This document shows positions 56,769 through 61,645 of a stretch of 64,000 bases of DNA, in pieces. Where the stretch lies: contig CP151667.1 in the NCBI GenBank assembly GCA_038400315.1, positions 930,001 through 994,000 on the forward strand. Direction: 5' to 3'. Position 1 is the first letter of the stretch. The number at the start of each line of letters is the position of its first letter. This DNA comes from Isosphaeraceae bacterium EP7. GTDB taxonomy: Bacteria > Planctomycetota > Planctomycetia > Isosphaerales > Isosphaeraceae. The notes beneath the pieces were generated by a model, which saw only the letters and a program-made list of their open reading frames with translations, was not told the DNA's origin and did not search any database. A program made the translations under genes and the position numbers.

Positions 56769-57512
56769 TCAGGCTCGATCGACGAGGCTAGTCGGATCGT
56801 GTGCCCCGAACCTCAGCAGGTCCGGCGAGGTCATGCCGCCGGAGAGGACCGACTGGATCGTCTGCTGGACGGTCCAGTCGACCTCGACCACGTCTCGCTC
56901 GCGGACGAACAGGGTGAAGCCCGATGGGGGCATCACTCCGGTCAGCAGGCAGACGGCCAGGATCGTCTCGCCCGTGCCGGGGTCGCGCAGGGTCTTGGTC
57001 ACGAAGGCGAGCGACTTCAGGCCGGGTTGCGGGAACTCGATCAGGACGACCCGGCTATATCCCTTGGTGGGGTCGGACATCGTCTTGACCAGGTTGTTCA
57101 CGCCGTTGTAGATCAAAGTCACGACGGGGATCTTGAGGAAGAACCAGTCGAGCCAGCGCGAAACCCAGGTGCGGACGAAATAGCCCAGGAAATAGAGGAT
57201 CGTCAGCACGACACTCAGCCCAATGGCGGGCGCGACGACATCGATCCACCAGCGGGGCAGGTCCTCGGGGTTGGGCACATGCGTGGCCAAGAGCACCAGC
57301 CTGGCTAGGGGGTCGAGCACCAGCGTCTGGAAGATCGACAGCACCTTCCCGACGATCCAGAGGGTGATGACGGCCGGCGCGATGAACAGCAGGCCGCTGA
57401 AGATGCGTGAGCGGATGGTCCCGAAGAGGGCGCCTAGGAGCGCACTGAAGAAGCCCTTGGGCGTGGGCCGCCCGTCGGCGGCCCCGGTCGGCGGGTTCGT
57501 TTCGTAATCCAT
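56769..57512 (-). CDS. DUF502 family membrane protein
   Basis: 247 residues. Two hydrophobic hairpins ([24 protein letters not shown] and [22 protein letters not shown]) and the conserved DUF502 text ([75 protein letters not shown]). The plant homologue LCV2/COV1 affects vascular development; the bacterial role is unknown, perhaps in membrane or envelope organisation. The start is ATG 57512. Divergent from the MoxR operon, with 185 bases between. Confidence 0.92.
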
Positions 57513-57697
57513 GGGTGTCTCGGACGCACTTCCCGGGATGGTATCAGTCCGGCCCAGAGCGTACCGGCGACGCCGCCGGCTGTCGCGGCAATTCGGCCGG
57601 TGCCGGTCCGCTTGGACGGGGCGGGCCCAGTCCGTTACATTGGTGCACCGGTGCGTACGGACGCACGGCCCTCGAACGAAGGCGGGATTTGCGCGAC

Positions 57698-58708
57698 ATG
57701 GCCAGCAAACAGTCGGATACGCCGGAGACCGCCTTGGTCGGCGGCGTCACCCTCCACCTGAGCCACCCCGACTCGACGGAGCAATCCTGGATCGGCCAGG
57801 AGGGCGTGCTCAAGCAGCTCCTCGCCTGCTGGCTGGTGCTCGACCCCACCGACCGACCGCTCTCGCCGCGGCTGACCGGCCCGCCGGGCATCGGCAAGAC
57901 GACGCTGGCCATGGCCGCGGCTCGCCTGCGCAAGCAAGACTTGTACATCAACCAGTGCACGGCCGACACCCGGCCCGAAGACCTGCTCGTCACACCCGTG
58001 CTGGCGCAGTCGGGCAAGATTGCCTATCACGCGTCGCCGCTGGTTACCGCCATGATCCGCGGCGGAATCTGCGTGCTCGACGAGGGCAATCGGATGAACG
58101 AGAAGAGCTGGGCCAGCCTGGCCCCGCTGCTCGACCACCGGCGAACCGTCGAGAGCATCGTTGCAGGTATCACCATCCGGGCCCATCCCGAGTTCCGCGC
58201 CTGCGTGACGATGAACGAGGATGAGTCGACCTACGAGGTGCCCGACTACATCCTCTCCAGGCTCCAGCCCACGCTGCCGCTCGACTTCCCCGCCCGCGAC
58301 GACGAGATGGCCATCCTCCGATACCACCTCCCCTTCGCCCCCGACGACCTGCTTTCACTGACCGTCGAATTCCTCCAGCAAGCCCACGAGCTGAAGCTCG
58401 ACTTCTCGCCCCGCGACGGCATCAACCTGCTGCGGTTCGCCCTGAAGCGGCTTGCGCAGGACCCCGACCATCCGCTGGGCCGCGACGAGGCCTGGCGAGA
58501 GGCGCTCGTCTGCACCCTGGGCGAAGAAGCCGGCGATCTGGAAACCCTGGCCCGGCGGAGGCGCAGGGCGCTCGGCGGCCAGTCGGCCCCGATGGGACTG
58601 GCCGACCTCTTCTTCGACGCCGACGACCCGCTCCATCCCGATGATGACGACGACGAAGATGATGACGACGCCAGCCCTTACGACCCGACCGAAGACGACG
58701 ACGACTGA
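57698..58708 (+). CDS. MoxR-family AAA+ ATPase with acidic tail
   Basis: 336 residues from ATG 57698 ([16 protein letters not shown]). Walker [10 protein letters not shown] at 61-69; Walker [14 protein letters not shown] with D128-E129; sensor 1 TMNED at 171-175; arginine finger R188 in [14 protein letters not shown]; a C-terminal lid helix bundle ([15 protein letters not shown]). The last 30 residues are almost all Asp/Glu ([11 protein letters not shown]...), unusual for MoxR. These ATPases usually act as chaperones that remodel a partner, classically with a VWA protein, but no VWA gene is present here. First gene of a three-gene operon with 18- and 24-base gaps. Confidence 0.85.
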
Positions 58709-58726
58709 ACACGCGAGAGCACGCCG

Positions 58727-60595
58727 ATGCCCCCCGCCACCCGGCCGACCGCCGACGACTTCCTGACGATCGGCCCGCGTATCCGGGTCCTGCCCGTGAT
58801 CCATGGCTCGGGGGACTTCGCCCTGCGCGTGCGCGAGGAGCTGCTTTCCAGGCCGTACGACTGCCTGGCCGTTCCGCTCCCACCGTCGTTCCAGGACGAG
58901 GTTGAGCAGGCCGTCGAGCGGCTGCCCGAGATCGCGCTCGTCGCCCGCAAGGACGCCGAGGAGGGGGACGGCGAATCTGGGTTCAGCTATGTTCCCATCG
59001 ACCCCTGCCAGCCGGTCATCGCTGGCATCCGCACCGCGATCGGCGAGCGGATCCCGCGTGAGTTCATCGACCTGGAGACGACCCGGTTCGAGGCCCAGGC
59101 CGCCGCCTTCCCCGACCCTTACGCTCTCAAGAAGGTGAGCCCGGGCGCATTCGCCGCATCGATCCTGCCGGCCATCCCCCGGCCCAAGGCGGGACAGCAC
59201 GCCGACCGAATCGCCTGGATGGCCAACCGGCTCAGGCAACTGCAGCGCGACCACACGCTGACCCTGTTCGTCTGCTCGATGCTCGACTGGCCCTGGATCC
59301 GCGACGCCTACCAGACCGGGCAGGAGCCCCCAGAGCCGGGCGGGTACGACTTCACGCCGACGCTCTCCTACGGCGTGACCACGCGTACCCTCATCTTCCT
59401 GCTGGGCGAGATGCCGTTCATCACCGGGCTCTACGAGCGGGGCCGGCGCGAATTGACGCCGGACGACAACCTCTCGGTCGACGGAGTGAAGGAACTCGTG
59501 CTCTCGGCCCGAGACACGATGAAGTCGACTCATCCGCGGATCGCCAAGCGGATCACGCCTCAGCTCCTCTCGACCTATTTCCGATACGTCCGCAACCTCT
59601 CGCTGATCGAGCGCCGGCTGACGCCCGACCTGCACACGCTGGTCGTCGCGGCGCAGCAGACGGCCGGCGATGATTTTGCCCTGGCCGTGGCCGATGCCGC
59701 TCGCGACTACCCTTATGCCTCCGAGCCCGACCCCGACGAGCCACGCGCCAGGATGGGCATCGACGAGGCCGACCTCCCCGGCTGGGGGCCGATGCCGATC
59801 GTCAGCCGCCTGCCCGGCCAGGCGATGAGCTGGCGGTCGATCGAGCTGAAGCCGAAGGCGCCCGAGAAGACCAGGCAGCAGTGGAAGCAGCGGTGGGACC
59901 CGTACGGGATGTGCTCGTGGCCCCCCGAGGACGACCGGATCGAGAGCTTCAACCGCCACGTCCGAGACCGGGCCCGCGCCATGATCGGCGCCGACCTGGC
60001 GCGCTCAGAGAAGTTCACGTCCAGCGTGATGGACGGCCTCGACGTCCGAGAAACCTTGCGCAACTGGCACACTGGCGACCTCTTCGTCAAGGTGATGCCC
60101 CCCGCCCGCGGCTCGGTCGACGCGGTCGTCTTCCTCTTCGACGTGCCGGCCGATCCCGAGCATTATCCGCACCGGGCCACCTGGTACGCCGAGCACGCCG
60201 AGGAGTCGACCCTCGCCTTCTTCGCCACCGACCCGATGCAGGACATGGTCGGCCCCGGGATCGCGCGCGGCGAGTACGGCGGCGCCCTGTTCCTGTTCCC
60301 GCCCCGGCCGATCCTCGACGTCTGGAGCGACCCGAGGCTCGACGTCGCCGAGACCCCCGAGGAACGCCTGCTGGCCGCAGCCTTACTCCACGGCCGTGAG
60401 CGTCACGTCGCCGTCGTCAGCCCCAAGCCCCCGTCCGCCTCCTGGCGCCGGCTCGCCCGCCGCTACAACCGCAAGCTCATCCATCTCCCTCTGAACCGCT
60501 TCGGCGGCCAGATGATCGAGCGGTTGCGCCAGTTCCACGTCCTCAACGGCAAGCACGTCCGCTCATACGCCGCCGACTTCATCAGCGACGGCTGA
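58727..60595 (+). CDS. 622-residue protein of unknown function, MoxR partner candidate
   Basis: 622 residues, start ATG 58727 (18 bases after the ATPase stop). No confident family. The N-terminal text RIRVLPVIHGSGDFALRVREELLSRPYDCLAVPLPPS, with IPREFIDLETTRFEAQAAAFPDPYAL further on, has the layout of the TraB/TIKI/EreA-like superfamily and of DUF5682, a known MoxR neighbour. This is a distant resemblance. Later regions include an all-helical middle (LSVDGVKELVLSARDTMKSTHPRIAKRITPQLLSTYFRYVRNLSLIERR) and a C-terminal part (VDAVVFLFDVPADPEHYPHRATWYAEHAEEST...ADFISDG) with mixed strands. No signal peptide or membrane helix, so cytosolic, presumably the ATPase's client. Confidence 0.7.
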   Translation: MPPATRPTADDFLTIGPRIRVLPVIHGSGDFALRVREELLSRPYDCLAVPLPPSFQDEVEQAVERLPEIALVARKDAEEGDGESGFSYVPIDPCQPVIAGIRTAIGERIPREFIDLETTRFEAQAAAFPDPYALKKVSPGAFAASILPAIPRPKAGQHADRIAWMANRLRQLQRDHTLTLFVCSMLDWPWIRDAYQTGQEPPEPGGYDFTPTLSYGVTTRTLIFLLGEMPFITGLYERGRRELTPDDNLSVDGVKELVLSARDTMKSTHPRIAKRITPQLLSTYFRYVRNLSLIERRLTPDLHTLVVAAQQTAGDDFALAVADAARDYPYASEPDPDEPRARMGIDEADLPGWGPMPIVSRLPGQAMSWRSIELKPKAPEKTRQQWKQRWDPYGMCSWPPEDDRIESFNRHVRDRARAMIGADLARSEKFTSSVMDGLDVRETLRNWHTGDLFVKVMPPARGSVDAVVFLFDVPADPEHYPHRATWYAEHAEESTLAFFATDPMQDMVGPGIARGEYGGALFLFPPRPILDVWSDPRLDVAETPEERLLAAALLHGRERHVAVVSPKPPSASWRRLARRYNRKLIHLPLNRFGGQMIERLRQFHVLNGKHVRSYAADFISDG

Positions 60596-60619
60596 CCCCA
60601 CCGCACGCCGGAGACCGCG

Positions 60620-61645
60620 ATGTCCTCAATTCAGGCCCTCCTCCTGGCCACTTGCGGCCTCCTTGCGCAGCAGCCCGAAGCGACCACCGAGCCGTTCGAT
60701 TCGCCCAGGTTCGGCCTGAAGGTGGCCTTGCCGGGCTCGTGGAAGCTGGCGGTTCGCGAGGAGGAGGACAAGGTCTTCGTCGCCCTGATCCCCCAGCCCG
60801 ATCCCGAAAAGCCAGGGGTCGCCCTCTGCGAGCTGGCCCTGGCCCCCGAGTCCCTCGACGAGTACCGGACTCGTATCGAAGGGGGAGCCGGGCGGGGCGG
60901 GAAGCTGGCCCGGAACGAGGTGGTTGACACTCCCAAGGGGAAGCGGCTGATCACGGTGCGGGAGTTTCGGCCGAGGGAAGGGGGGCTCTGGCGAGAGCTG
61001 AGCGTTCGCGTGGTCGCCCACCGGCAGATGTATACGTTCCTGCTCAACGTGGACGAAGCGACCTACCCGGCCGCGAAGTTGGCCTTCGAGGCCATGGTCG
61101 ACGACGCCGAGTTCAAGGCACCCGATACCGGCGCAGAACTGGCGTCGAAGCCCGAGAATCGCTGGCTCCAGCGCGAGTTTCGATTCACGCTCGACCTTCC
61201 CGAAGGCTGGTCGCCGGCCCTGGCCCCAAGCTCGCTGGCCCTCTTCTATGCCAACGCGTCGGCGCACGGAATCTGGGCCGACAACGTCCTCGTCCTCGCC
61301 GCCGAACCCAAGGAAAGAGACCTCGAAGCCCTCGCTAGAGACCTCCCCGCCCAGCTCCGCGCCGCCGAGCCCGACTGCGAAGTCCTCTCGTGCAAGGTGA
61401 TCGATCAGCCCCTGGGCAAGAAGCCCGTGAAGGCCCTGGAGACCGTGGTCCGCACCAAGCGTGGGCCGTTCTCGATGACCGTGCTGGAGCGGCGATTTCA
61501 AGGCGAACGATACAATTACGAGGTCAAGTTCACCGTCGAGTGCAGCCGGTTCGATGCGATGGCCACTGACCTCCGCAAGAGCCTCGACAGCTTCGGCGAG
61601 GCCCCCGGAGAGGCGCCCGTCGCGGGAACCCGGCGGGCCACCTGA
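60620..61645 (+). CDS. Exported protein with two DcrB/PsbP-like domains
   Basis: 341 residues from ATG 60620 (24 bases after the previous stop). The N-terminus MSSIQALLLATCGLLAQQ is a short signal peptide; the Cys could mark a lipobox, but it is not a classic one. Two similar beta-alpha-beta units follow: residues ~25-165 (SPRFGLKVALPGSWKLAVREEEDKVFVALIP) and ~185-330 (FRFTLDLPEGWSPALAPSSLALFYANASA...). Both have the (V/L)-x-L-P-x-x-W pattern of DcrB/PsbP-like folds. Function unknown. It belongs to the MoxR operon, but is periplasmic while the first two products are cytosolic, so its role there is unclear. Confidence 0.7.
   Translation: MSSIQALLLATCGLLAQQPEATTEPFDSPRFGLKVALPGSWKLAVREEEDKVFVALIPQPDPEKPGVALCELALAPESLDEYRTRIEGGAGRGGKLARNEVVDTPKGKRLITVREFRPREGGLWRELSVRVVAHRQMYTFLLNVDEATYPAAKLAFEAMVDDAEFKAPDTGAELASKPENRWLQREFRFTLDLPEGWSPALAPSSLALFYANASAHGIWADNVLVLAAEPKERDLEALARDLPAQLRAAEPDCEVLSCKVIDQPLGKKPVKALETVVRTKRGPFSMTVLERRFQGERYNYEVKFTVECSRFDAMATDLRKSLDSFGEAPGEAPVAGTRRAT

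Follow-up and report, generated by a model that had tools for sequence, protein, structure and literature searches.

A MoxR-type ATPase and a partner protein with an altered TraB/TIKI-type domain, paired in Planctomycetota and beyond

MoxR ATPases are common, and most of them are without known clients. What might such an ATPase do beside a large partner in which no VWA domain is recognised? The question is raised by a 64,000-nucleotide window from Isosphaeraceae bacterium EP7 (contig CP151667.1, positions 930,001 to 994,000), in which the gene of a MoxR-type AAA+ ATPase, P1, precedes the gene of P2, a partner protein without a named family. We find that P1 and P2 form a real unit, and profile and model comparisons place the first domain of P2 in the TraB/TIKI type. 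Together, P1 and P2 are probably an undescribed, widespread protein-remodelling machine.

P1 and P2 across genomes

P1 (57698-58708, 336 residues), P2 (58727-60595, 622 residues) and a third gene, P3 (60620-61645, 341 residues), all lie on the + strand. The gaps are 18 bases between P1 and P2 and 24 bases between P2 and P3, so that the coordinates agree with the order, spacing and common direction read by an initial annotation of this DNA. A longer P1 frame is possible from a GTG at 57515; full-length P1 relatives begin aligning at residue 1-14 of the ATG form. P1 scores above the Pfam cut-offs for AAA_5 (70.4 bits) and AAA_3 (32.2 bits). These matches, together with a Walker A motif (GPPGIGKT, residues 61-68, 57878..57901, + strand) and a Walker B region (CVLDEGNRM, residues 125-133, 58070..58096, + strand), place it among the MoxR-type AAA+ ATPases. 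The Walker B residues D128 and E129 are kept at a 97% threshold in 38 aligned rows, and the solved chains nearest to P1 by sequence are Midasin, CbbQ and NorQ. MoxR-type ATPases form hexamers, and by analogy the same is predicted for P1.

We scored both genes in 392 genomes drawn across the phylum Planctomycetota, counting P1 as present where a close relative was found at E<=1e-30. P2 occurred in 59 genomes and P1 in 61; of 40 relatives, 26 had P2. All 59 P2-positive genomes carried P1, and two genomes had P1 only (Fisher p 2.5e-68 for co-occurrence over the 392 genomes, a value that carries no phylogenetic correction and ignores shared ancestry). The two genes lay on one contig and one strand, less than 4 kb apart, in 29 of the 59. 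In one family, f2, both genes were retained in 26 of 26 genomes and linked in a single one, many of these assemblies being single-contig. Outside f2, 28 of the 33 P2-positive genomes had P1 and P2 linked, within 4 kb and on one strand; the remaining five had them on separate contigs of draft assemblies. Such strict co-occurrence, kept up even without linkage, is in keeping with a stable co-factor or adaptor.

The pair also extends beyond the phylum. A GTDB scan returned 23 loci, from Planctomycetota, Nitrospirae/Nitrospira, Nitrospinota and Latescibacterota records; in 19 of them P1 is upstream of P2 and in the same orientation (of the four others, L069 starts too near P2 to judge). Its nearest named matches include Isosphaeraceae and Singulisphaera metagenome-assembled genomes at 69-70% identity. 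Where the P1-P2 gap could be measured in loci from Nitrospirota, Nitrospinota and Latescibacterota, it did not exceed 163 bases. A further pair was found on plasmid pS13 of Neochlamydia sp. S13 (Chlamydiota; L238:8102-10815), where an ATPase 53% identical to P1 over 279 residues is encoded 5 bases upstream of a P2 relative with 28.6% identity over 97% of its length. The two are annotated as an AAA family ATPase and a hypothetical protein.

P1 and P2 diverged in parallel (pairwise r=0.94, 38 loci), with a mean pairwise identity in the same loci of 64% for the P1 core and 46% for P2, and each positive genome held a single P2 locus. Slow evolution, together with the single copy, points to a housekeeping role for the putative complex. 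Conservation of the pairing, which the initial annotation had named as its own test, is thus borne out by the co-occurrence in all 59 genomes and by linkage in several phyla. Two P2 matches contain one in-frame TAG each (G046:C13:22788-24659 and G236:C41:162451-163251), which may reflect sequencing error, decay or recoding.

Domains of P2 and the altered TIKI site

Window P2 had zero matches in Pfam, NCBIfam and PADLOC at E<=1, and is accordingly without a match to DUF5682 (PF18934) against the Pfam cut-off of 26 bits. Single-sequence comparisons with the Escherichia coli proteins YehM, YehL and YehP were weak or negative; profiles revealed the relation to YehM, a DUF5682 protein. The P2 profile held 56 proteins, hand-picked for spread from 73 non-redundant rows after the split frames L100 and L102 and six short rows had been left out; the DUF5682 profile held 14, namely 13 of 21 loci and YehM. 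The two profiles matched with a probability of 96.8 and a score of 92.7, against a maximum of 25.9 in 30 column shuffles and 18.1 on reversal. Although the alignment extends to about residue 425, the signal is confined to residues 1-205. This fragment gave a probability of 97.3 and a score of 89.8 (17.4 reversed), whereas fragments 205-380, 340-622 and 390-622 scored 14.8, 22.4 and 18.5 against reversed values of 15.5, 17.8 and 17.5. P2 is hence not a whole-length DUF5682 homologue, its later fragments standing at control level. When the 56 members were searched singly, DUF5682 and TraB were the commonest family matches, all weak: DUF5682 in three (best E 0.008) and TraB_PrgY_gumN in two (best 0.19) with Pfam, and TraB (TIGR00261) in five (best E 2.7e-4) with NCBIfam.

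Models of P2 pointed in the same direction. The AlphaFold2 model had a mean predicted local distance difference test score (pLDDT) of 91.2. VIA-align placed residues 1-200 on the Tetrahymena complex IV chain 8b6h_DQ (Z 10.4, 172 residues, 6.5 Å), and two more entries of that subunit reached Z 9.6. Residues 6-197 were matched to HopBA1 (5t09; Z 7.6, 139 residues, 3.8 Å), a score within the range (Z <8) that VIA-align says can be common. HopBA1 is listed among TIKI-superfamily proteins in PMC6254334. On the DUF5682 homology with its controls, the TIGR00261 matches and the HopBA1 fold match, the first domain of P2 (residues 1-205, 58727..59341, + strand) is of the TraB/TIKI type and homologous to the DUF5682 N-terminus. 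The resemblance that the initial annotation had noticed at the P2 N-terminus is thereby supported, and no characterised family was found that would claim P2 for another function. DUF5682 may itself be TIKI-type, judging from its motifs and from the matches to P2.

The middle of P2 (residues 206-383, 59342..59875, + strand) is mostly helical. Residues 250-326 weakly resemble the BchI AAA+ lid (1g8p, 68 residues, 2.5 Å); with a VIA-align Z of 5.3, below the meaningful level of that program, we do not claim a lid identity. The C-terminal domain (residues 384-622, 59876..60592, + strand) is the most conserved part, with no family found: mean identity to window P2 was 60% for residues 391-622 versus 47% for 1-205. 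Modelled alone, the C-terminal part reached a pLDDT of 87.1; Foldseek returned nothing for this model at E<=0.001, and the highest VIA-align Z was 5.5. Among the matches listed, the PepQ N-domain, RuvX, Argonaute and integrase chains fell at Z 3.3-5.5. The order of elements and the many such chains hint at an RNase H-like fold, which we did not adopt because the best Z is too low. Residues 421-460 (59987..60106, + strand) are a candidate segment for contact with the ATPase ring. Their blocks pair high conservation, 0.67-0.81, with reduced model confidence, pLDDT 70-85, some other blocks being equally conserved, and on the model they might be a segment ordered by a partner.

The first domain of window P2 lacks two residues of the TIKI-type hydrolase set. 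In DUF5682, E53 and the GX2H histidine H232 are invariant in the 14 aligned sequences; they correspond to P2 positions 50 and 187. Window P2 has Pro at codon 50 (58874..58876, + strand), where DUF5682 and the deeper-branching relatives have their catalytic-type Glu, and Asp at codon 187 (59285..59287, + strand), where they have the GX2H His. Positions 50 and 187 co-vary: the 56 P2 proteins comprise Pro/Asp (32), Glu/His (13), Pro/Glu (4), Pro/His (2), Ala/Asp (2) and one each of Cys/Asp, Glu/Leu and Ala/Glu, and the Neochlamydia relative has Glu/His. His26 is kept in 53 of the 56. A maximum-likelihood tree of 57 rows separated the 42 proteins lacking Glu50 from the others by a branch supported at 100/100, and position 50 required one change on the unrooted tree versus a mean of 13.4 with shuffled labels. 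Because DUF5682 also has the Glu/His pair, loss at position 50 is likelier than gain, as far as an unrooted tree of sequences can indicate.

The state of this site is associated with the tail of the ATPase. The initial annotation had described an almost pure Asp/Glu tail. In window P1 the last residues (316-336, 58643..58705, + strand) are indeed mostly Asp/Glu, but such a tail occurs in only part of the relatives, among which the length of this extension varies. Better kept is an element N-terminal to it, D-[LF]-F-F...DPLHPD, which ends most P1 relatives in the window's clade, often before an acidic stretch of variable length; Nitrospirota P1 proteins stop shortly past it. The PLHPD-type motif of window P1 spans residues 303-315 (58604..58642, + strand). 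We counted P[LM][HRN]P in the 39 of the 56 rows with the ATPase in the extracted locus. Of the 29 loci with a P2 other than Glu/His, 26 had the motif; of the 10 with Glu/His, none did. The three exceptions were L079 (a mis-extended frame), L092 (Glu/Leu) and L105 (a variant). The Neochlamydia ATPase, annotated with 284 residues, also lacks a PLHPD-type tail.

P3 and other neighbouring genes

P3 is a bystander, a neighbour in some genomes of the family and not a dedicated part of the system. Among 25 genomes of the window's family, it occurred in 9 of 19 with P2 (in 8 of these within 1.4 kb of P2) and in 4 of 6 without P2. Because P3 comes and goes independently of P1 and P2, we rejected the three-gene operon unit that had been proposed for the locus. 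The description of P3 as an exported protein of two domains fared unevenly. Export is probable from its N-terminus as judged by eye; the two similar halves are weakly supported, aligning with each other at an hhalign probability of 9.3% and a score of 24.3. P3 also had weak DcrB- and PsbP-like matches, below the cut-offs.

We found no conserved third neighbour of P1 or P2 that recurs beyond lineage synteny. Neighbouring genes were called with a simple home-made caller, by which small genes may be missed. The recurrent ones that we inspected, among them DNA ligase, a LysM protein, GroEL and DUF502, resemble housekeeping or unrelated genes by eye. A DUF502 gene lies upstream of P1 in the window, in divergent orientation (56769-57512, - strand), with members of its cluster in loci L010, L012 and L033. 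As the initial annotation had stated, no VWA partner was recognised nearby: Pfam gave no VWA match at E<=1 and no SWIM match in the eight window proteins scanned. A promoter scan returned 0 sites and a terminator scan 2, not above shuffled sequence.

VWA genes do stand beside or within DUF5682 genes elsewhere. In the same genome, outside the window and separate from P1-P2, a full DUF5682 gene adjoins a VWA_CoxE gene in a couple of the YehM/YehP type (G000:C1:5255418-5258701; L137, L176, L213). Natural single-frame DUF5682-VWA_CoxE fusions occur at L143:727-4548 (- strand, 1274 residues) and L150:1357-4767 (+ strand, 1137 residues), and there are more VWA matches within long frames of G214, G365, G416 and G224.

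Proposed mechanism and known systems

We favour, with moderate confidence, a model in which P1 and P2 are two obligate subunits of one ATP-driven machine and P2 is an adaptor built on a TIKI scaffold. P1 would form a hexamer ring as other MoxR-type ATPases do, and P2 would bind it as its dedicated adaptor. Because the catalytic-type Glu and the second His are missing, the TIKI domain of window P2 would act as a binding scaffold, not as a hydrolase. The C-terminal domain, perhaps via residues 421-460, may contact the ring in the manner of the NorD finger or of McrC, in systems compared below. The PLHPD-type tail of P1 could be a second docking site on P2, gained where the TIKI active site was lost, and the complex would remodel a protein client. 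From the strictness of pairing and the conservation of both proteins, we would expect this client to be important and shared. In a wider and more tentative form of the model, the pair represents a distinct class of MoxR machine lacking a MIDAS-type (metal ion-dependent adhesion site) VWA. Such a class would have begun as an ATPase with a catalytic TIKI hydrolase. In the ancestor from which the window's clade descends, the hydrolase would have been converted, once, to a non-catalytic adaptor, and the ATPase would have gained a peptide for docking at its C-terminus; the range of the class would be Planctomycetota, Nitrospirota, Nitrospinota, Latescibacterota and Chlamydiota. If true, a regulated hydrolase turned into a machine that only remodels and has a conserved client of its own. 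The clades with kept and changed TIKI sites form a natural comparison of a catalytic with a scaffold form, and the genes of f2, mostly unlinked and both kept, could be deleted separately without polar effects.

Several observations weigh against the adaptor model. Two genomes carry P1 with no match to the P2 profile, G186 (99% complete, one contig, P1 at C1:213890-214864, L171) and G045 (66% complete), so that P1 might work by itself or with a different partner. Pairing is conserved but the two genes are not always neighbours: in the window's family, 16 of 19 loci hold P1 and P2 on one strand, and in 8 of these 16 the gap is 595-3777 bases (0.6-3.8 kb), the other eight having gaps of at most 156 bases. 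On the structural side, Foldseek gave no match in the PDB at E<=0.001 for the full P2 or the C-terminal model, only three chains of a single Tetrahymena subunit exceed Z 8, and HopBA1 stays below that value. The coupling of site and tail has exceptions as well: two P2 rows without Glu50 still have His187, the tail of L088 (Glu/His) is partly similar, and L105 (Pro/Asp) is without the exact motif. Finally, a ring with a VWA-less adaptor would itself be an arrangement argued by analogy.

The main rival is that P2 is the client, P1 being a chaperone devoted to its folding, loading or activation and the C-terminal domain being an enzyme or binding protein in its own right. Dedicated MoxR chaperones serving one neighbour exist, strict co-occurrence fits a client as well as an adaptor, and conservation in P2 is highest in the C-terminal domain, which may be RNase H-like in topology (Z 3.3-5.5 among the matches listed). 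We nevertheless regard this reading as doubtful, since no catalytic set was recognised in the C-terminal domain, the RNase H-like structural matches are below VIA-align's meaningful level, and the NorD precedent, by analogy, favours an adaptor. The undescribed ATPase/client system suggested by the initial annotation survives to the extent that no description was found, but "client" is a possible and not the likeliest role of P2. It is unlikely that the C-terminal domain is instead a highly derived VWA and P2 a compacted YehM-YehP fusion that hides the missing domain. The domain order of P2 is that of the natural DUF5682-VWA fusions (P0004, P0005), its segment LDxRETLRNWH resembles a YehP segment by eye, and a low-threshold alignment of P2 with VWA (27 of 32 extracted rows and YehP; alignment A5) is colinear. 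Yet the profile scores of 20.9 and 17.6 fall within the column-shuffle maxima of 23.7 (60 shuffles) and 28.9 (100 shuffles), and the MIDAS motif DxSxS was absent in the 19 P2 members examined. No VWA chain was among the best 50 Foldseek and best 50 VIA-align matches listed for the C-terminal model, a result with which a VWA fold is still compatible.

Slightly less probable again is an active, ATPase-gated TIKI hydrolase that would make the pair a regulated protease or esterase. Its residues speak for it in other branches: Glu and the GX2H His are kept by the deeper-branching relatives, DUF5682 and the Neochlamydia P2, and His26 is retained nearly throughout the family. In the window's clade, however, Glu50 is replaced in 42 of 42 tree rows and His187 in nearly all, and in PMC6254334 a TIKI-superfamily protein without the 2His/2Glu set failed to cleave the substrate of an active relative. 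We give the least credence to a biological-conflict or anti-phage system resembling the MoxR-VWA ternary systems, even though MoxR ATPase ternary systems occur in planctomycetes according to PMC7159879. Such a system fits poorly with a single P2 locus per positive genome and the parallel divergence of P1 and P2. P2 and P3 had no PADLOC match at E<=1 and the best P1 match had E 0.021, which leaves the locus outside the anti-phage systems modelled in PADLOC; the viral contigs scanned held zero P2 relatives, and one relative was on a plasmid.

How does the pair compare with known systems? Gene arrangements in which a MoxR ATPase has a partner of its own, in some cases of the DUF5682 type, are already known, whereas the searched libraries and literature gave us no description of the P2 family, of its altered TIKI domain or of its C-terminal domain. 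The literature search, with subscription journals mostly outside it, returned no publication on DUF5682 or on MoxR together with TIKI and, for two or more of yehM, yehL and yehP together, no study that looks functional; co-mentions of TraB and MoxR look unrelated. The main text of PMC7159879 does not mention TIKI, EreA, TraB or SWIM. The adaptor model would give P2 likenesses to four groups. In E. coli yehL-yehM-yehP-yehQ (MoxR, DUF5682, VWA_CoxE and SWIM), where yehM is flanked by yehL (MoxR) and yehP (VWA), a MoxR-type ATPase likewise adjoins a DUF5682-type N-terminus. The window differs in having no VWA_CoxE or SWIM gene beside the pair, and P2 differs from YehM in being shorter, in a homology supported for residues 1-205 only and in an unlike C-terminal domain. 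With the TIKI/TraB superfamily (HopBA1, ChaN, Ere), P2 shares the fold match of residues 6-197 to HopBA1 and the TraB matches in 5 of 56 members; it differs in lacking the catalytic-type Glu and second His in the window protein, and in having the domain joined to two further regions. NorQ-NorD and CbbQ-CbbO each combine an ATPase near P1 (NorQ, CbbQ) with one large dedicated partner. In NorQD, as described in PMC13036017, a finger of the NorD VWA domain enters the pore of the MoxR-type ring; NorD has a MIDAS-type VWA and none was recognised in P2. McrB-McrC, by the same source (PMC13036017), joins an AAA+ ring to a VWA-less partner in a finger-in-pore assembly, with the McrC finger entering the pore without a VWA domain. 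P2 had no McrC or nuclease family match in the general family scans, beyond which the relation was not tested. With these two assemblies as precedents, P2 is an opportunity to test how a MoxR ring could operate when its partner has no MIDAS-type VWA.

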